DNA of 39,889 nt from a virus, in the IMG/VR virus record IMGVR_UViG_3300030102_003440, positions 1 to 39,889 of that record; one strand, written 5' to 3'. The position numbers and the translations under genes were made by a program. Shown piece after piece: positions 7,081 through 15,850 of the stretch (positions are counted from its first letter, which is position 1; each line of letters starts with the position of its first letter). The notes beneath the pieces were generated by a model that was given only the letters and a program-made list of their open reading frames with translations, had not been told where the DNA came from and made no database searches.

Positions 7081-10000
7081 TTAGTATGTACGTCCAAAAC
7101 CCAAAGCAATATATTTGAAGTTTCTCACAACTAAACTGTCGTTACCGCTTGAATCTCTGTTTTTTATATTCACTGTAAAATTTGTACTTGTAACATTTGT
7201 TATCTCTACGAAGTCTCCACCCTGTGCATTTTCCACTGAGACACTGACTGCGGGCTTTGCGCTGTTTGCTGCTACATCTAATCCATTAACACCAGTAAAA
7301 AATGGCTCTTCAAAAGTAACAGTAGTGCTAGTCGTACTGCTTGAAGTAAATCTCCCATTAGTTGAAGTTGTATTTTCTATACTTGATTCTGTTCTCCTGT
7401 CTAGACCAGCTAAAAACCCAAGCTCTTCAATAATTATTGATTGAGCAGGATCGGAAATATCAAAAATACATTTGAATTTAAAACCTCTTGCAGTAAAGTC
7501 TCCGTTGATAAATTCATCGAATGGAGTAAATTTATTACTTAAATTAGCATTACCACTCTGAAAAATTATATTACCGATTTCTGGTTGTGGTGTGACTACT
7601 ACAAATTTATCAGGATCATCAAATTTACCAGTGCTTGACCTAAAACCTAAACTGTGAACTAAAAAATCATGGTCAATATTTTTATTTTGGGCAAAACCAC
7701 TCGTGAAAGTAATAAAAACATTATCCCCAACTTTTAAACCATGATTAGTTTTATTAATTTCTGTAAGGCCAGTTGACATGCCATAAGTTACAGGAGTTGA
7801 CGCATTTGGATCCTGATCAGTTGTTGCGACTAATACTTTCGCGTTTGTGTTGACGGCTTGGTCGTCAGTTCCGTCAAATTCAAACCATTTATCAATAGCT
7901 AAAGTTCTAGTACTAAATACAGTACTTGGATAATATGAACTAGTTTTTAAAATGCTTTTTAATCGTACTGGCTGTATTGAGCCAACATCTAAAGCAGAAG
8001 AAAAAACATAAAATCCACTGGTGACAGCTAAATCTGAAACTAATCCATTTTTTGTCGTATTAAAAGCGCAATTTTTTTTCACACCGCCAAACTTAGGATT
8101 GGTATTGTGTTCTTTATCTTCTAGCAATTTAAGAGCATGACGCGCAGGACGATTAACTATGACAGATGTCTCTCCAATACTTTGCCTGCCTCCATCATCT
8201 TCAGTTTTTAAAATATATTCACCTTGCCACGGATGTGGCACTATTGCCTCTGTTGAGTTTCCAGCGACTGCTTGTAAAAAATTTGATTGTGAGAACAATC
8301 CTTTGCCTTGAAAGTTAAAAGAATAATTGATCAAAATTCGTCCACCATGCACCACGTCAGGATCTGTAGGCTTATCAAAACGAAGTCTTATATTTCTCTC
8401 GTCAATTGGTTCAAATGTTAAATTCTGTATTGGTGCGGGGTTTGCAGTTTTTCCAGAAGTTGCAAAAAACACTTTTGTAAAATCTGAACTTATGCTTCCT
8501 AAAGAGTTATATGATTTGATAACAAATTGATATACACCAAGTCTCGCAAGTTCATCGTAAAACTCAAAAGTAGGTGCTGACACTCTTACACTTACTGGAT
8601 TGTCTACTATTTCTAATTTAGGATCACTAAACTGATACTCCAGTAAATATTCACTTACTCCTATTACTGGCTCCCAAGCTACTGTTAATCTGGATACTGC
8701 TCGATCTCGTAACGAAACTATCTCCTCTGTGACAGTAGCATTTTTTGGAGATGAAACTTGACCGATAAGAGTAGTTATTGTTCTTGGCTCAGGGGGTGTG
8801 TCTAGTCGTTCTATCTCTCCGTACTTAAGGGGATCATGAATTATAGCTGAAATACTATATTCAAAATCATTATTTTCTTCAATCCCAACTACGCGATAGA
8901 GCTGTATTGGTACGGCTGCGCTGGTTATTGAATAAACTGTGCCGATATTTGGGGAAATACCTTGTGGATTGATTTTGGCATCTAGTGTAATTTTTCTGCC
9001 AGATATTGATACTATATTTCGTGTCAGTGTTATTTGTTTGTTTTCTGAGTCAGAAGAAACAGCTGCAGCAGAAGGCATTACAACATGTATTGTTTTGAGT
9101 CCCTGTGCCAATGCTGGTATATCACCGTCTGAAATTATTTCATCAATATCTGAGTTGCCTGCAGAACTACTAAGACCAGCAATGCGCCCTCCCATCCTAA
9201 TTCCTTGTTTCAAACTATCAGCAATACCAATCACCATAGATGGTCTCACAACAACACCAGCTTCTAAAGATGTTGAAAAAGTAACTACTTCTACTTCTTT
9301 TAAGTTTGTATATAAGAACCATCTACCTAATCTATTTGCCTGACCTCTAGAAGTACAAGCAAAACTTTTAAGGGTTTTTCGTATTCTGCCAAATTTATCA
9401 ATATATCCAGATAACGCTGGTATTTTATTTGTATCAACAAACTCAAAATCTAGTGTCTGTGTGTCATTATCAAAATAAGAAACTTCTACCTCTGTAAATT
9501 TGGTCTTATCTCCTATTTGGTTATATGTAAAACCATCTCTTCCTACATTAGAATTATTAAATACATATTCTGGTGTTGATGTATTTGTAGTTGTATTCGT
9601 TGGTCTGTCTTGATTTATAACAAGCGACCCAGCACTATAAAATGCGGTGGCTCTCATAACGCTACACAAATCATTAATCAAAGTGTATGCATCTTGCCTT
9701 GTATTTAAAATTACATTGCAACTAAATCTTGGTTCATCTATACCTGTTATAGGATCTGTAATTATTTCACTTGCATATTTAGATGCTTGGAAAAAAGAAA
9801 ACACATCTAATGAATCTTCAGGTATAACACCCTCTGGACCACCAAAAGCTTTATCCGTCGTTAATAAATCATAAAGAATCCACGCTGGATCTGCGCTCCA
9901 TTCTTTGTCAGCTTTAAAAGTACCATTAAAAGTACCACTGTAAGTAATAGCTCCATTATCTAAATCTACAGTTCCGTTATGAGGAATCTTAATTTTTGTA

Positions 10001-10839
10001 CCCTTAACCCGATACATTCTTTTAGGGAAGGCTAATGGGAAAGTTTGTGCATTAAATCTTAACGCTACATAAGCAAAACCTTTGTAAGCTTGTGGTTCTG
10101 TAATTATTGTTGTTAACGATAAAAAAATAGTTTTATTTGCCAACTTATTATCAGTGCTATCCTCTGTATTTCTTGTAACTGTGACTGTTAAAGGAAATTG
10201 AAGATTATTACTTTCTAAAACAATTTCATAATCTTTTACATAAGGATTTTGTGATTTACCTTTTATAGAATCTTCTTTGACTGGATTATGCTCAGTTCCA
10301 TTATTTTCTGTTATTTTTATTGATATTTTTACTTCCGTACCGCGTATATCGCCTTCTTTGGTAAATTGCAGCAAAGATGGAATCTGTATAGATACTCTTA
10401 TAAGTTTTATTAATTCATTATTATTTGCATCTTGAACACCTGTTATTGATCTTGAAACAGATGTATTTTTTGTTACTTCAACTCCTACAGGTATTGTATT
10501 CTCTACTCGGTCAGGACCAAATGTATCAAAAGAGCTAAGGGGATCTTGGTTATCGGTTCCATTCCTAAAGAAAACTTCTACATCTTCAAAATTAGGATCT
10601 CCATTCGCATTTACCAAGGGTGTATTATCTAAAAAAATATCTCTTCCAATATTTAAAGAATCTGTCGTAGTTGGGTTTGTATTTGACGTGCTCCTTAAGC
10701 CTTCAATTTCGCCATATCCTAACAAATCTATAACTGTTGCAAATTGTTTACTTCTTAAGCCTCCTTTTATTAAATCAGGGTCTATTGCTCTGCTATCAGG
10801 TTTTCCTCCAAATAATTCATCATCAATTAATCTAGGCAT
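7081..10839 (-). CDS. Tail tip attachment protein, lambda J-like
   Basis: At 1252 residues this is close to the usual gpJ length. The N-terminus (GLRSKQFATVIDLLGYGEIEGL) is typical of gpJ-type central tip proteins. It is followed by the WSADPAWILYDLLT segment near residue 330 and a baseplate-hub-like beta core to about 680. Fibronectin-III-like strands lie at about 690-880 (SRLTVAWEPV near 717). Residues about 1018-1090 hold an inserted module with TNHGLKVGD that also occurs in the neighbouring I-, L- and M-like proteins. The C-terminus is beta-rich. Expected roles are closing the tail tube, carrying fibres and contacting the host. Gene order (M, L, K, I, J) supports the call. Confidence 0.9.
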   Translation of the reverse strand: MPRLIDDELFGGKPDSRAIDPDLIKGGLRSKQFATVIDLLGYGEIEGLRSTSNTNPTTTDSLNIGRDIFLDNTPLVNANGDPNFEDVEVFFRNGTDNQDPLSSFDTFGPDRVENTIPVGVEVTKNTSVSRSITGVQDANNNELIKLIRVSIQIPSLLQFTKEGDIRGTEVKISIKITENNGTEHNPVKEDSIKGKSQNPYVKDYEIVLESNNLQFPLTVTVTRNTEDSTDNKLANKTIFLSLTTIITEPQAYKGFAYVALRFNAQTFPLAFPKRMYRVKGTKIKIPHNGTVDLDNGAITYSGTFNGTFKADKEWSADPAWILYDLLTTDKAFGGPEGVIPEDSLDVFSFFQASKYASEIITDPITGIDEPRFSCNVILNTRQDAYTLINDLCSVMRATAFYSAGSLVINQDRPTNTTTNTSTPEYVFNNSNVGRDGFTYNQIGDKTKFTEVEVSYFDNDTQTLDFEFVDTNKIPALSGYIDKFGRIRKTLKSFACTSRGQANRLGRWFLYTNLKEVEVVTFSTSLEAGVVVRPSMVIGIADSLKQGIRMGGRIAGLSSSAGNSDIDEIISDGDIPALAQGLKTIHVVMPSAAAVSSDSENKQITLTRNIVSISGRKITLDAKINPQGISPNIGTVYSITSAAVPIQLYRVVGIEENNDFEYSISAIIHDPLKYGEIERLDTPPEPRTITTLIGQVSSPKNATVTEEIVSLRDRAVSRLTVAWEPVIGVSEYLLEYQFSDPKLEIVDNPVSVRVSAPTFEFYDELARLGVYQFVIKSYNSLGSISSDFTKVFFATSGKTANPAPIQNLTFEPIDERNIRLRFDKPTDPDVVHGGRILINYSFNFQGKGLFSQSNFLQAVAGNSTEAIVPHPWQGEYILKTEDDGGRQSIGETSVIVNRPARHALKLLEDKEHNTNPKFGGVKKNCAFNTTKNGLVSDLAVTSGFYVFSSALDVGSIQPVRLKSILKTSSYYPSTVFSTRTLAIDKWFEFDGTDDQAVNTNAKVLVATTDQDPNASTPVTYGMSTGLTEINKTNHGLKVGDNVFITFTSGFAQNKNIDHDFLVHSLGFRSSTGKFDDPDKFVVVTPQPEIGNIIFQSGNANLSNKFTPFDEFINGDFTARGFKFKCIFDISDPAQSIIIEELGFLAGLDRRTESSIENTTSTNGRFTSSSTTSTTVTFEEPFFTGVNGLDVAANSAKPAVSVSVENAQGGDFVEITNVTSTNFTVNIKNRDSSGNDSLVVRNFKYIALGFGRTY

Positions 10840-10858
10840 AATAATAAAATTTTATCCG

Positions 10859-11743
10859 TCAGAAATTACCTTTAGAGATGACGAATCTATCTGGGTTTCT
10901 ATCTACTATTCTAACAGTATTATCTGATGAATTTCCAAAAGTACCTAAAGGTGGACCCCACATTCCTAAAGGTACTTCAAAAGTATCCGCAGTAACATTT
11001 TTTACAAAAAAAGCAAATCCTTCTCCACCTGTATCTAGAGTACCCCTGCCAGCTATAGGTCCTGTAAGCCAATCAAGCGCAATAGTTTCACCATTTTTCA
11101 AACCATGGTTTGAGATAAATATTTTAGCAATTTCTGCGCTTGGTTTTGAATAAGTACCTTCATCAGTTATAAGTGCTACTAACTGAACAGTATCAACCCC
11201 TGCACTAATTAAAACTGATCCGCTAAATACATGTCCATATAAAATCGGCACTGGTACACCACTAGTGCTGACATTTTGTATGCCGTTAAACGCATAAGAA
11301 CCTCTTATATTTGGATCTGTATCACCGACAGAGCTTTGATTACTTGCTGGTCGATTATTACTTAATAAATCTGTTGCAAGAGTTATACCAGCCACCGTAG
11401 CAAGAAGACTAATACCTCCTGTAAAGAAAGCAGTTACAAATGGTATTGCGTTATCAACAATAAAATCAAAAACATCTCCTAAAAAATCAAACAAACCTGA
11501 ACCAGCAGCGACAGGCACTATTTGTATATCCCCTTGACCTAGAAATGATATTTCATCTTGAGTTACAACACGTCCTCCCATTTTTACCTTATATAGTTGT
11601 TGATTCATGTGTTGATCAAACTCCTCAAAGTTTGCTCTTAAAAAATCAAAGGCTTGTTTAGGCGAATTAACAGCAGCTTCAAAATTATTTTCTCCTAATA
11701 ATTTTCTCAACTTACCATAAACTTTTATTTTTCTTAATTCCAT
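10859..11743 (-). CDS. Tail assembly protein, lambda I-like, with inserted beta module
   Basis: Starting at the ATG at 11743 (GGGAGAG about 6 nt upstream, directly after the K-like stop) gives 294 residues. A longer upstream frame would overlap the K-like gene and is less likely. Residues 1-85 match gpI: RKIKVYGKLRKLLG, then the ubiquitin-like core and the IQIVPVAAGSG loop. A hydrophobic segment follows (about 90-130, FVTAFFTGGISLLATVAGIT). A C-terminal beta part at about 205-268 contains SNHGLKNGE. Lambda gpI is clearly shorter, so the C-terminal third is an addition. It acts in tip assembly with the K- and J-like proteins. Confidence 0.8.
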   Translation of the reverse strand: MELRKIKVYGKLRKLLGENNFEAAVNSPKQAFDFLRANFEEFDQHMNQQLYKVKMGGRVVTQDEISFLGQGDIQIVPVAAGSGLFDFLGDVFDFIVDNAIPFVTAFFTGGISLLATVAGITLATDLLSNNRPASNQSSVGDTDPNIRGSYAFNGIQNVSTSGVPVPILYGHVFSGSVLISAGVDTVQLVALITDEGTYSKPSAEIAKIFISNHGLKNGETIALDWLTGPIAGRGTLDTGGEGFAFFVKNVTADTFEVPLGMWGPPLGTFGNSSDNTVRIVDRNPDRFVISKGNF

Positions 11744-11744
11744 C

Positions 11745-12101
11745 TCATGCTCTCCCTGCTTGTAAATTTTTCCAATTTTTTGGTTCAACTGTAATCCAAC
11801 TATCCTGAACAATACTATAAATAAAATATGGAAAACCAATATGCTCACATGATGCTATGTCTGCCCTTGATGGTTCTGCTGTTATTTCTGGATGACTATG
11901 CACTACACCAACTATCTCATCTGCTAAATCTTCACACTCTATCCAATCGTCAGGGTCCAGAATAAAAAAATCTTTTTTTTCTTTAGCTAAATTTTTACAA
12001 GGCCAAAATTTTTCTTCACCTTCAATAACAGCTACCAGACCGCAAGCCTCATAGGGTGCCTCTTGTTTTGCATAAATTTTGAAAGATTCTTTCCAAGTCA
12101 T
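11745..12101 (-). CDS. Tail tip JAMM/MPN peptidase, lambda K-like without NlpC/P60
   Basis: The chosen start is the ATG at 12101 (MTWKESF), one base past the L-like stop, giving 118 residues; an upstream GTG at 12128 is possible. The full JAMM zinc signature is visible: E18 in YEACGL, H68-S-H70-P, S78 and D81. Lambda gpK joins such a domain to a C-terminal NlpC/P60 domain. Here the protein ends about 25 residues after the JAMM motif, so the NlpC/P60 half is missing. The role is tail tip assembly and possibly local peptidoglycan or tail-protein cleavage. Confidence 0.85.
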   Translation of the reverse strand: MTWKESFKIYAKQEAPYEACGLVAVIEGEEKFWPCKNLAKEKKDFFILDPDDWIECEDLADEIVGVVHSHPEITAEPSRADIASCEHIGFPYFIYSIVQDSWITVEPKNWKNLQAGRA

Positions 12102-12102
12102 A

Positions 12103-12957
12103 TTAAAAATTAACAAAAGTTCCAACACCTATAAAGTCTGCGCGAGATACGAGTTTTTTTGGTGCGCCAACACCACTTAAATCAAAACTGCTTATTAATT
12201 CAAACTGTACAACATCTCTATTCTCTAGGCTTTTTTTGTCGATAAAATATACCTCTCTTGGCATCTCTGTAAGTGGGTCAGGTGTGCCAAATGGATTTAC
12301 ATTTGAAGGAAAATTTTCTGCATCAAGAAATTTTGCTAAAGTTCTAATTCTAGTTACTTTTGCAGTTTGCATATCAATAAAAGGTGTAATTAAATTTGTA
12401 TCTGCAAGTATTGAACTAATACTACCTAGAAGATTAGAGAATGTAATCGTAGGTCTAGGCAGTGTCCCTTTACCAGAATATTTGAAACCACTCGCTTCAC
12501 ACGGCATCCTAGTATATTTATTATTTTGCCAGATTATGTTTGATTTATCCTTGATATTTATACCGCTGTGAAATAAAAAAATTGTTGGTTGTCTCTGTGA
12601 GTTTGTTATTTTCGCGTTGACGACTCCTTTTACTTTACCCGCAGTAGCTAGAGTGTTCAATGCTTTGACAGTGAAATTACTTGATGTAACTGTATCTACG
12701 GTATATATACCGCTAATTGCCACAGGAGCTGTAGGAGCTTCTGCCGCTACAGAAAATTCTAGATTAATCAGATCCCCCACAGAAAGTTCAAGAAATGCAG
12801 TCGCTAAAGCTACAGTAATTGTTTCTGCTGATTGTTGGTAAGTTGTATCAAATGATTTTTTTGTGTAATGGATATCAGGCTTTAACTCAATAGAAAAAAG
12901 TTCTATAATTGATTTATTAGTTAGTTTTTGTAAGTCAGATATAGGATTTGTAGTCAT
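12103..12957 (-). CDS. Minor tail protein, lambda L-like, with inserted beta module
   Basis: The 284-residue protein has the L signature split in two. SIIELFSIELKPDIHY lies near residues 16-31. FHSGINIKDKSNIIWQ followed by ASGFKYSGKGTLPRPT lies at about 129-170. Between them (about 41-125) sits an inserted beta module (LSVGDLINLEF, GIYTVDTV, NFTV). The C-terminus stops at about the point where lambda gpL begins its Cys-containing iron-sulphur part. Only one Cys (C153) is present, so no cluster is expected. It overlaps the M-like gene by 4 nt. The role is the ring at the tail tip. Confidence 0.8.
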   Translation of the reverse strand: MTTNPISDLQKLTNKSIIELFSIELKPDIHYTKKSFDTTYQQSAETITVALATAFLELSVGDLINLEFSVAAEAPTAPVAISGIYTVDTVTSSNFTVKALNTLATAGKVKGVVNAKITNSQRQPTIFLFHSGINIKDKSNIIWQNNKYTRMPCEASGFKYSGKGTLPRPTITFSNLLGSISSILADTNLITPFIDMQTAKVTRIRTLAKFLDAENFPSNVNPFGTPDPLTEMPREVYFIDKKSLENRDVVQFELISSFDLSGVGAPKKLVSRADFIGVGTFVNF

Positions 12958-13547
12958 GGTTCAAAAACTTCTCTAAAACTACAGTTAATTACAGCTCTGT
13001 TCCTAAATGGAATAGATTTCGACCACTGTTCACACACAAATTTCCCAGCTCCAGATAAATCAAATGTTATAGAAGTTTGGCTTGTGACATGTGCGTTTGC
13101 AGCAGAATTTATAGTAAATGTGTTTTGATTCGCAGCAGCACTTACGACATAATCACCGTTAGCTAGACCTCCACTGTTTGCAGTAACAGAAATTGTATCG
13201 CCAATCGCTACTCCATGGTTTGCACAAGATACGGTAACAATTTTTCCTGTAGCACCAGCTCCATTTGATTGAATAAATGTTCCTCCTTTGTTGCTGAATC
13301 CCTCAGCTGGTGGTGTAAATGTAAAGCTAGCCTGATCTGCTACACGGCTCCTTAGAAAGGCTTCTATTACGTCTGCTTCGACCTCTGTGACATTAAAACT
13401 TAAATCGTATATTTTGGGATCTTGATTTTGTGGCAAGCCGAACAAGGCGCGGAACTCGTATCCATCACCCAGTTTCGTAACTCTTACATTAGGAGTACTG
13501 TTTTTTCTTGTGCCGTATGTTGGCTGTATTGAAGGAAATGTTGCCAT
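12954..13547 (-). CDS. Minor tail protein, lambda M-like, with inserted beta module
   Basis: A 197-residue protein; lambda gpM is about 109. The N-terminal part (RVTKLGDGYEFR, then FTFTPP at 75-80) and C-terminal part (KFVCEQWSKS, INCSFREVF) match gpM/distal-tail-type proteins. About 80 extra residues are inserted between them (86-158), containing CANHGVAIGD, GDYVVSAA and NTFTI. The start codon immediately follows the tape measure stop. The likely role is the distal tail ring. The insertion is the odd feature and is shared with three neighbouring proteins. Confidence 0.8.
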   Translation of the reverse strand: MATFPSIQPTYGTRKNSTPNVRVTKLGDGYEFRALFGLPQNQDPKIYDLSFNVTEVEADVIEAFLRSRVADQASFTFTPPAEGFSNKGGTFIQSNGAGATGKIVTVSCANHGVAIGDTISVTANSGGLANGDYVVSAAANQNTFTINSAANAHVTSQTSITFDLSGAGKFVCEQWSKSIPFRNRAVINCSFREVFEP

Positions 13548-15850
13548 TATCTATTTAAAAGACCTCCACTTCGTGATTCTTCTATTAATGTTCTTTGTAC
13601 TATAACTCCAATAAGTTGTCCAAGTGCGTCTGCGCTAGATCCGTCACCTTGTACTGAGGTCCCGCCAGCATCTACGTTTACCACAATATTATTAGTCGTT
13701 CCTGCTCCACCAATTTTGTTATTTGGTGTAATAAATCCACCTCTATTACCTAATGTTAAAATTTCTGGTCCTTTTTCGCCCACGATAAAAGATTTATTAG
13801 CTGCTACTGGACCTCCTGACGCTCTGAAACCGCCAAAAACTTTACCCAAAAAGCTACCAATCGGACCTCCAATACCAGCTACAGCCTTTTCAATAGCTAC
13901 TTCAATCAACTTTCGTTTTAACTTGTTCAGTGTGCTTATTGCTGCATCTGCAAGTGTTTTTGTACCATCTACCGCGTCTGTAAGATTTTGAACAATACCT
14001 TTTTCAATATCCTCACCTATTTTCGCAAATTTATCTTTTAATTTATCTGCTTCCTCCTTAGCTTTTTTTTCTGCGTCTGTAATCTCATCAACAGAAGTTT
14101 TTATTTTTCCATTAGTTTCTACAATTTTATTTTTTGCATCAACTTGTTTATTATTTTCTTCAGTTATTTGCTTTTCAACTCCACTAAATTCAATAATCCC
14201 ATTTTTTAATTCATCGACTTTTTCTTTTAAACCTTTAAAAGCATTTTGCAATTTTGGTATTTTTACATCTAAATCAAGTTTTGGTATTTCAAGCCCCCCT
14301 AATAATTTTTTTATAGGTTCTGGAATATTTTCAATTAGCTGGTTTATTTTGTCTCTAATAAAAGTAACGACACCATCTACTAAACCAGTGATTGTATCCC
14401 TTACACCAGTTGCAGTTTTAGCAATTGCAACAACTATTTTACCTATTACACCACCAACAACCTGAGCAAAAAAGACAGCTTGTTCTGAACTCTCTGAAAC
14501 CGCTTCTTTTATTCGTATCCACCCTTGCTCTAAATTAAATAAAGTTTTTGTTGCATCAATTCCTATTGCATCAGTTATTACTGTTCCTATCTGACCAATC
14601 AAAGCAAAAAGCTGTCTAGTAGGTGTAAAAAGAGCCTTAATAGCAACTCCTAAAGCTTCAACAGTGACAGCAGTTACTTTTAAAACTTCTCTTATAACTA
14701 TTCCAAATTCAGAACCTTCTGTCGTTATATTAGTAAATGCAGAGCTTAATCTTGTCAGTTGACCCTGAATTGTATTAGTTGCTGTAAAAGCGTCTTGGGC
14801 AGCCCTACCTTGTGCATTAGCTTGGTTTTCAAGAGCCTCATTAAACTTGACTAATTCATCATTTAATAAAGGCTGTATTGCGGTAAGAGCCTCCACACTT
14901 CCAAATAATTTAGATAAGTTGTCTGCACTCGCTCCACCATTTGCAACAATATCTTCTAAAACTCCGCTGAATCCTTTTGACTTTAATGCAGCAGCACTGA
15001 AATCAATACCAAGTTTTTCTGCTACTTTAGACGCTTCACCAGTGGGCTTTTGTATTGAAGCAATAACTTGTCTGAGTCCAGCAAAGGTAGATTCAACAGG
15101 AACACCAGTTGCAGTAACAGCAGAAATCGCAGCATTTAATTCATCTATACTCACACCAGCACCAGCGGCTATCGGTGCAATACGACCTATCTGCTGTGCA
15201 TATTGATCTACAACAATTTTACCATCAGCCTGTGTCTGTGCGAATCCGTCAACTATTTTTCCAGCTTTATCAGCCTCTAAGCCATAAGCATTTAAAACAG
15301 ATGTTGTTGCATCAGTAACAGTTTGCAAATCAGAAAATCCACCAGTAGCACCTAACTGGGCTGCTTTTAAAATATTTGTAATTTCAGCAGTTTCAGCAAA
15401 ACCAGCAGATGCTAAATCATAAGATGCCTCTAATAATGAAAGCTGTGATACTTGACCACTAAGCTCATTTGATAAGCTTGCAAGTTGTGGTCTAAGAGCT
15501 TCAACATTTACTCCAAGAGTCCTTACCCTTGCTATGGCAAAGTCTTGAGCCGATAAGTTCTGAAATGTTTTTGTAAGTGCAGCAACTAGAGTAAGTCCCG
15601 CAGTAAGTGGCCCTAAAGCTGTAGCTAATGCAGCTCCAGCACTTCTAAAACTTAATGCTGCCCCTTTTGCTGCTGCGCCACTACCAAAAAAGTTTTTGGA
15701 AACTATTGGTAAAGTTTTATTAGCATCTTTTAACTTGCTATTTGTTCCGTTTACAGTCTGATTAAATTTTTGCGCCTGAGTATTTACATTCTTTAATGCT
15801 GTAATTGCTTGGGTGGCTCCAACTCTTAATTCTACGTTTGAAACTGCCAC
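13547..15850 (-). CDS. Tail tape measure protein (TP901 type)
   Basis: A 767-residue protein starting with GTG at 15850, with AAGGAG about 13 nt upstream. Residues about 80-340 form the TP901-type core (LEASYDLASAGF, DATTSVLNAYGLEADKAG, TFAGLRQVIASIQKP). Hydrophobic stretches follow at about 385-500, then a Lys/Glu coiled-coil segment at about 540-620. The C-terminal signature SFIVGEKGPEILTLGNRGG is near 695. It sets tail length; at about 0.15 nm per residue this predicts a tail of roughly 115 nm. It follows the G/T chaperone cassette, as in other siphoviruses. Confidence 0.93.
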   Translation of the reverse strand: MAVSNVELRVGATQAITALKNVNTQAQKFNQTVNGTNSKLKDANKTLPIVSKNFFGSGAAAKGAALSFRSAGAALATALGPLTAGLTLVAALTKTFQNLSAQDFAIARVRTLGVNVEALRPQLASLSNELSGQVSQLSLLEASYDLASAGFAETAEITNILKAAQLGATGGFSDLQTVTDATTSVLNAYGLEADKAGKIVDGFAQTQADGKIVVDQYAQQIGRIAPIAAGAGVSIDELNAAISAVTATGVPVESTFAGLRQVIASIQKPTGEASKVAEKLGIDFSAAALKSKGFSGVLEDIVANGGASADNLSKLFGSVEALTAIQPLLNDELVKFNEALENQANAQGRAAQDAFTATNTIQGQLTRLSSAFTNITTEGSEFGIVIREVLKVTAVTVEALGVAIKALFTPTRQLFALIGQIGTVITDAIGIDATKTLFNLEQGWIRIKEAVSESSEQAVFFAQVVGGVIGKIVVAIAKTATGVRDTITGLVDGVVTFIRDKINQLIENIPEPIKKLLGGLEIPKLDLDVKIPKLQNAFKGLKEKVDELKNGIIEFSGVEKQITEENNKQVDAKNKIVETNGKIKTSVDEITDAEKKAKEEADKLKDKFAKIGEDIEKGIVQNLTDAVDGTKTLADAAISTLNKLKRKLIEVAIEKAVAGIGGPIGSFLGKVFGGFRASGGPVAANKSFIVGEKGPEILTLGNRGGFITPNNKIGGAGTTNNIVVNVDAGGTSVQGDGSSADALGQLIGVIVQRTLIEESRSGGLLNR

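Follow-up and report, generated by a model that had tools for sequence, protein, structure and literature searches.

A homologous, optional module in four tail-tip proteins of a cyanosiphophage of the MED4-184 group and its putative role in adhesion

Whether similar extra segments in four neighbouring tail-tip proteins are copies of one domain, and what such a domain would do at the tip, is the question raised by IMG/VR virus record IMGVR_UViG_3300030102_003440. The window analysed here is this whole record of 39,889 bases, whose minus-strand tail module encodes a tape measure protein, M, L, K (JAB domain only), I, J and further small genes. The segments were noticed in a reading of the DNA letters alone, referred to below as the original prediction. 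To our knowledge, little is known about the adsorption of cyanosiphophages. M, L, I and J of the window were each found to carry one copy of a homologous module of ~75–90 residues, with a family consensus of roughly TY.QSG.TITIT..HG...GD...DF.SG...DG.Y.V.....N.FTV. Optional beta domains decorating siphophage virions are of a kind already known.

A profile of 41 modules gave four matches in the record at E ≤ 0.001, all within the tail tip (13,050–13,298, 12,613–12,867, 10,970–11,170 and 7648–7809). This profile and the combined profile (Table 1) include the window copies, on which the window E-values obtained with them lean, as do the own-position values of profiles built from one position; the cross-position and hhalign values do not. 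One-position profiles were run against 3,691 open reading frames (ORFs), using independent E-values (i-E-values) and counting the best match anywhere in a protein. The M profile detected the window copies in L (5.4e-5), J (1.2e-4) and I (3.1e-4), and the J profile those in M (2.3e-11), L (7.8e-6) and I (0.069). The L profile detected M (1.7e-4) and I (0.083), with J not found among these ORFs, and the I profile gave 1.1e-3 for M, 0.028 for J and 1.4 for L. The window I copy is weak if taken singly, and the window L and I copies are weaker than the family. Across the family, at i-E < 1e-3, the J profile matched 91/91 M, 45/45 L and 7/11 I modules; the M profile 45/45 L, 9/11 I and 61/61 J; the L profile 89/91 M, 8/11 I and 57/61 J; and the I profile 85/91 M, 41/45 L and 37/61 J. 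The families of the four positions were then compared as wholes with hhalign, after removal of the window and its near-twins, which returned probabilities of 97.3–99.6 over 64–71 columns for all six pairs of positions (E-values of 1.8e-23 for M–L, 1.3e-23 for M–J, 1.4e-24 for L–J, 1.1e-13 for M–I, 2e-13 for L–I and 2.8e-11 for I–J). Control regions, comprising the L core, the M core, the flank before the J module and the J stretch before that flank, scored below 1 in 16 of 16 pairs. Chance resemblance of the four segments is ruled out by the one-position profiles run against all ORFs and by hhalign against these controls, and the likeness of the four segments that the original prediction had described is thereby confirmed, including by comparison of the position families with one another.

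The boundaries originally proposed (M 86–158, L 41–125, I 205–268 and J 1018–1090) agree with ours within ~15 residues, given a shorter I start. The I-specific profile places the I module at residues 223–320, and the combined profile finds the first part of the J module (1009–1069; 1.5e-12, window copy in profile). The HG motif stands at residue 109 of M (ANHGVAIGD), 246 of I (SNHGLKNGE) and 1031 of J (TNHGLKVGD). Window L reads LSVGDLI at residue 58 and, as originally noted, has lost HG, which is kept in 43 of 45 L modules; the loss is peculiar to the window phage and its near-twin, contig L006. The I segment, taken earlier for an insert, is instead a C-terminal extension.

Related loci were selected for their resemblance to the window proteins, with some searches keeping the best 80, and proportions of module carriers do not represent population frequencies because of this selection. 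De-replication was applied within one contig only, and L006 and L162, separate contigs whose identity profiles are almost alike, are both counted. In the 135 distinct M proteins that show both halves of the core, these are separated by 5–8 residues in 36 and by 79–97 in 99, with none intermediate; the short form occurs in Marine virus AG-345-A17 and Synechococcus phage S-H1, and the long form in MED4-184. In 145 distinct L proteins, the core starts at residue 28–61 in 97 and at 97–127 in 48, and the N-terminal module is present in 45 and absent from 100. Most of 129 distinct I proteins stop within 10 residues past the core, and twelve, including that of the window, extend 89–107 residues beyond it with module-like sequence (exceptions are L089, cut by the contig end, and L007, with a longer tail of 132 residues). 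The corresponding J gap measures 9–48 residues in the minority of J proteins without a module, 81–102 with one and 161–165 in three (L011, L013 and L039). These long inserts are perhaps tandem modules, a second copy being detected in L011 alone, and weakly (0.048); further copies lie closer to the J N-terminus in nine loci. The original prediction turned on whether relatives lack the module, and such relatives were thus found at every position.

L also showed other variation. The L proteins of L112:474–1229, L148:2356–3696 and L149:5096–5875 bear an unrelated N-terminal domain (..GSSEPNWP.. type) and no N-terminal module, and because of this second kind of domain L appears to be a site for several optional domains. 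L148 has two modules close to the L C-terminus. The late part of the L protein at L002:3015–4007 (Marine virus AG-345-A17) has a different insert of ~110 residues, whose H..C..H..M pattern we take to recall cupredoxin.

Co-occurrence was tabulated over 157 loci, with same-contig duplicates dropped. Where both M and L states could be read (139 loci), the module was in both in 47, in M only in 59, in neither in 33 and never in L only; for L and I (120 loci) the figures were both 12, L only 31, neither 77 and I only 0. M and J (79 loci) gave both 58, neither 16, M only 2 and J only 3, and I and J (86 loci) both 12, J only 54, neither 19 and I only 1. All four modules occur together in eight loci, among them the window. 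A quickly built tree of the M and L cores (140 loci, branch support not inspected) required at least 1 change for L, 5 for M, 5 for I and 8 for J. The nested pattern, L only with M and I only with L, partly reflects common descent and so does not count as separate support for any order of gain. Among cultured phages, MED4-184 has the module in M and J and lacks it in L and I; the P-HS2 record gives the same M, I and J matches as MED4-184, and S-H1 has zero matches to the 41-module profile.

AlphaFold2 models were computed for M and L, from alignments of 59 M and 43 L proteins, and each was compared with PDB chains. The mean predicted local distance difference test (pLDDT) score was 83.8 for M and 78.1 for L, with ten-residue means over the insert of 71–90 and 71–95, respectively. 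The M model superposed on lambda gpM (8iyk_E) with a Z-score of 13.4 over all 109 residues (root-mean-square deviation (rmsd) 2.9), and the L model on lambda gpL (8iyk_L) with a Z-score of 17.2 over 149 residues. In the models, both inserts are thus a small barrel within an intact lambda gpM/gpL core, in keeping with the earlier view that they split a lambda-like core and that M, at 197 residues against 109, is nearly twice lambda gpM. The best non-tail match of both inserts was phi92 endosialidase residues 255–341 (M: 255–340, Z 8.9, 82 residues, rmsd 2.4; L: Z 8.2, 74 residues, rmsd 2.0, 24% identity). The K1F endosialidase barrel was second best for L (423–509; Z 7.7, 70 residues, rmsd 1.7, 29% identity) and reached Z 8.2 for M (423–508). 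Unrelated folds, which would have spoken against the original prediction, were not seen in these two models, which matched the same barrel domain. The FCCH domain of E1 enzymes also resembled the M insert (Uba1 179–257; Z 8.3, rmsd 2.2, 73 residues) and the L insert (Uba6, Z 6.8; Uba1 179–259, Z 6.7), with riboflavin synthase, FNR-like and UPF1 barrels scoring similarly, and is a weak sign of kinship. The barrel fold alone is not specific because several other barrels reach like Z-scores. A Foldseek search of the M model in BFVD returned mainly unnamed or whole tail proteins.

With the 41-module profile, built without any endosialidase, the phi92 endosialidase was matched at 3e-7 and that of K1F at 3.5e-4, followed by unrelated antigen-binding fragment (Fab) chains from 0.047; in a separate search, it found the K1F barrel at 6.1e-8. 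At E < 0.1, PF12195 (End_beta_barrel) was matched by 25 of the 41 modules and E1_FCCH (PF16190) by 2, with zero PF12195 matches for the window L and I modules at E 0.1. The PF12195 cut-off of 35 bits was passed by at least two modules, the M module of L012 (36.6) and the coat module of podophage P-SSP2 (36.4). The E1_FCCH cut-off of 29.5 bits was not reached, the L009 J module scoring 13.9. E1 FCCH was therefore rejected as the source family, since the fold fits and the sequence does not (best E 0.046). In sequence, the modules come closest to the endosialidase beta-barrel family PF12195; of the E1-FCCH-like label first suggested, the likeness of fold stood and the family assignment did not. 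PHROG families matched by the 41 modules comprised a baseplate wedge family (22), a tail spike family (10) and a virion structural family (8), which by sequence agree with a virion module and name no function; NCBIfam held no family common to most of the 41.

A J module was also used to query 50,697 phage records. At E < 0.01, 19 matched, with several phages present twice (GenBank and RefSeq); 17 were Prochlorococcus phages or cyanophages, and the other two came from Manatee Spring. The matches lay in the coat proteins of P-SSP2 (whose record gives Synechococcus as host) and P-SSP3, the tail fibres of P-HM1, P-HM2 and MED4-213, tail tube protein B of NATL1A-7, J of MED4-117 and the corresponding place in MED4-184 and P-HS2. 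A query with the P-SSP2 module added baseplate wedge gp7 of P-HM1 and the baseplate wedge of MED4-213. The 41-module profile gave eight matches each in P-HM1 and MED4-213 and three in MED4-184, one of them partial. This partial match occupies positions 1–147 of NC_020847.1, the very start of the record, and may be the other end of a permuted genome. It is a tentative possibility, towards which we do not lean, that Prochlorococcus phages of three tail types share one pool of swappable barrels, giving a graded adhesion of the whole virion in which alleles, as at the I position, tune host range. If true, siphophages would place the barrel in four tip proteins, podophages in the major coat and tail tube, and myophages in the baseplate wedge and giant fibre.

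Selection was estimated as the ratio of nonsynonymous to synonymous substitution rates (dN/dS) for the module and the rest of each protein. The respective values were 0.15 and 0.09 for M (39 pairs), 0.28 and 0.10 for L (12 pairs), 0.30 and 0.14 for J (8 pairs) and 0.63 and 0.29 for I (5 pairs). Module dN/dS is below 1 yet exceeds that of the remaining protein 1.7- to 2.8-fold, and selection on the modules is purifying but laxer than elsewhere in these proteins. Between the window and L006, identity in 150-base windows across 7100–13,700 is mostly 0.90–0.98, with 0.83 and 0.87 in two windows elsewhere and 0.81–0.86 beside a block in which it falls to 0.59 and 0.49 (11,150–10,851; I module and I end). 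Contig L162 shows nearly the same drop at the I module. In sequence, such a drop suggests the trace expected of allelic replacement by recombination; very fast local divergence is an alternative.

What the module does at the tip is approached by analogy, and we hold the chances about evenly balanced that it is a swappable accessory adhesion brick with putative glycan binding. By insertion or fusion, four tip proteins of a lambda-like cyanosiphophage would have acquired a small endosialidase-type barrel (HG-x3-GD), of which several copies would be displayed round the tip. There they would touch host-surface glycans weakly and reversibly, and these contacts would lift adsorption before J binds its final receptor. 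Surface display, copy number and glycan binding are inferred. The lambda tip has a ring of six M, trimers of L and J, and a trimeric I plug in the lumen (PMC10721106, in part), by which up to 15 barrels per tip could be present (6 M, 3 L, 3 J and 3 I). A glycan-binding accessory role is considered the most likely because the K1F barrel contributes one of three sites for polysialic acid and is also a hotspot for discriminating hosts (PMC12632334, a preprint, in part), Dit inserts of skunaviruses promote adsorption to exopolysaccharide-bearing hosts (PMC10688798, in part), and glycan-binding modules decorate the Dit, tail and neck of 936 phages (PMC6669499, in part). The four homologous copies, their presence and absence, the endosialidase kinship, the occurrence in coat, wedge, tube and fibre, the purifying dN/dS and the difference in the I allele support the adhesion role. 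The original prediction, which had proposed a decorated tip surface that may bind host glycans or brace the ring, is thus confirmed in its observation and partly supported in its interpretation.

Several points weigh against adhesion. The module is without a known ligand. After the numbering of the named sialic-acid residues of K1F, Ser460 and Ser468, had been checked on the K1F gene, Asp was found to occupy the Ser460 column of 177 of 204 modules (window M and J have Thr there, and window I has Asp), and the Ser468 column to show Asp in the profile consensus, the latter read from the consensus only. Polysialic acid cannot be inferred as the ligand by homology because these columns are mostly Asp. 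The window L copy is without HG, and the I module may not face the host because lambda gpI plugs the tube lumen (PMC10721106, in part). The endosialidase kinship is also qualified. The window M module scores 17.2 bits, below the PF12195 cut-off, as do most single copies, and a PF12195 family search (E 0.001) found P-SSP2 and neither MED4-184 nor S-H1. For M, reductase (FNR-like), siderophore-protein and riboflavin synthase barrels (Z 8.2–8.4) and a stretch of the T1 tail tube (8.3) are level with K1F. The barrel fold was computed for the M and L copies.

Alternatively, the barrels might bind no ligand and instead pack on their neighbours, stiffening the M and L/J rings or locking the I plug. 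Such a brace is unlikely in our view, although copies sit in ring and plug proteins, gpI of lambda lies inside the lumen (PMC10721106, in part), the K1F sugar-site serine is mostly replaced by acidic residues, and copies are conserved within one position. Copy number in relatives takes every value from zero to four, the I module is strongly divergent within an otherwise near-identical tip, and the coat and fibre proteins with the module share no ring to brace.

That the module is a tolerated passenger, a small fast-folding domain spread among virion genes by illegitimate recombination with little harm, would be consistent with its presence in many different proteins, the loss of HG in the window L copy and a dN/dS above that of the rest of each protein, reaching 0.63 in I. 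This is distinctly improbable, since the sequence is conserved, as judged by the dN/dS of 0.15–0.30 in M, L and J (39, 12 and 8 pairs), and since the L copies, present in 45 of 136 scored loci, need a single change on the core tree.

Recent duplication within the tail-tip cluster, making the four copies sisters, had been suggested originally. The carriage of the module by four neighbouring genes and its nested occurrence are in its favour, as are scores across positions slightly higher within one genome than between genomes for M (153 vs 137) and J (144 vs 137). They are lower within one genome for L (139 vs 147) and I (62 vs 72), and scores at the same position in other genomes are far higher (L 289, J 215, M 260 and I 157). 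At the DNA level, the best local score within a genome (64; 172 pairs) is no better than the best between genomes (66; 109 pairs). Recent duplication or gene conversion in the tip was rejected on these grounds, same-genome similarity leaving at most a slight trace in M and J and copies of one genome being about as distant as other-position copies in other genomes. We consider a recent origin of this kind highly unlikely; by sequence, it is disfavoured, and an old duplication may have taken place. The four positions appear old because modules resemble the same position elsewhere, not their neighbours. Finally, convergence of unrelated small beta segments, for which the shortness of the motif and the weak Fab scores might be invoked, is scarcely credible against the hhalign probabilities and their controls and the single structural domain matched by both the M and L models.

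Table 1. Tail-tip proteins, module copies and the divergent block in the window.
Feature	Position	Strand	Basis
M-like distal tail protein, 197 aa (lambda gpM 109)	12954..13547	-	PF05939 Phage_min_tail 50.8 bits, cut-off 39
Predicted beta-barrel module inserted in M, residues 82–167	13047..13304	-	combined profile 5.5e-17 (window copy in profile)
L-like hub protein, 284 aa	12103..12957	-	PF05100 Phage_tail_L 100 bits, cut-off 25
Predicted beta-barrel module inserted in L, residues 27–119, HG lost	12601..12879	-	combined profile 2.8e-18 (window copy in profile)
I-like tip protein, 329 aa from GTG 11848	10859..11848	-	phrog_32 tail assembly protein 1.5e-26, residues 36–222
Putative beta-barrel module at I C-terminus, residues 226–296	10961..11173	-	combined profile 2.5e-12 (window copy in profile)
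J-like central fibre/host specificity protein, 1252 aa	7081..10839	-	phrog_31 central tail fiber J 1.8e-157; PF24801 FNIII-A_GpJ 80.2 bits, cut-off 27
Putative beta-barrel module, distal J, residues 1007–1097	7549..7821	-	J-specific profile 1.4e-19 (window copy in profile)
Low identity to near-twin L006 (I module, I end, J start)	10825..11250		150-base windows 0.59, 0.49; 25-base profile

The window coat protein and terminase are 81% and 73% identical, respectively, to those of Prochlorococcus phages MED4-184, MED4-117 and P-HS2, and next nearest, at 63–66%, to those of Synechococcus phages KBS-S-2A and S-H1. By these sequences, the window belongs to the Prochlorococcus siphophage MED4-184 group, and its host is probably Prochlorococcus because both proteins are nearest to Prochlorococcus phages. 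The tail tip is of the lambda type, with the minus-strand order M-L-K-I-J, PF05939, PF05100, PF14464 (K) and PF24801 (J) above their cut-offs, and phrog_32 (I) and phrog_31 (J) matched. The I ORF opens with an upstream GTG at 11848 inside the end of K, and ATG 11743 is the likelier start, giving 294 residues; residue numbers for I are counted from the GTG and are reduced by 35 if the ATG is the start. The iron–sulphur domain at the gpL C-terminus has been described as universal in gpL homologues (PMC10721106, in part). It is missing from window L, a complete protein, and from related L proteins. Fewer than four cysteines follow the core in 131 of 138 distinct L proteins, some of them perhaps cut by contig ends, and at least four in seven (L145, L132, L135, L151, L137, L148 and S-H1).

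Among the matches listed in open-licence literature, as titles and abstract beginnings, none dealt with an endosialidase-type module in tail tips; the part consulted of a study on the prediction of phage receptor-binding proteins (PMC9230537) names End_beta_barrel once. The present copies suggest that a tail tip can be decorated by optional domains other than Ig-like or classical carbohydrate-binding ones, and that the distal ring, hub, plug and fibre of a single machine can all take up one domain. Cultured relatives that differ in the module (MED4-184 and P-HS2 vs S-H1) offer a testable handle on adsorption. If glycan binding holds true, the module would connect marine phages with the barrel by which coliphage tailspikes bind capsule.

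Among known systems, the K1F and phi92 endosialidases share the barrel (as judged from the M and L models), the sequence profile and the HG-x3-GD motif. There, however, the barrel is part of a capsule-degrading tailspike, whereas here it is a decoration without the propeller, with the window M copy under the Pfam cut-off, the L and I copies unmatched and the sugar-site serine mostly Asp. The E1 FCCH domain (PF16190) is a similar small barrel (Uba1), but its sequence matches 2 of 41 modules and stays below the cut-off where scored singly. The Ig-like and FNIII domains of phage tails, including FNIII-A/1/2 of lambda gpJ, are likewise optional small beta domains and are thought to make weak sugar contacts (PMC10721106, in part); the modules aligned with the J region taken to hold FNIII domains at an hhalign probability below 1. 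A parallel in arrangement is drawn with the evolved Dit of lactococcal 936 phages and skunaviruses (PMC6669499 and PMC10688798, each in part), where optional inserts likewise occupy the distal tail and other virion proteins at several positions per phage, and the distal tail protein M, the Dit equivalent, here carries an optional domain absent from 36 of 135 proteins. Those phages infect Gram-positive hosts, whereas in the present tip a single homologous module with putative binding, likened to theirs by description, occurs in four proteins.

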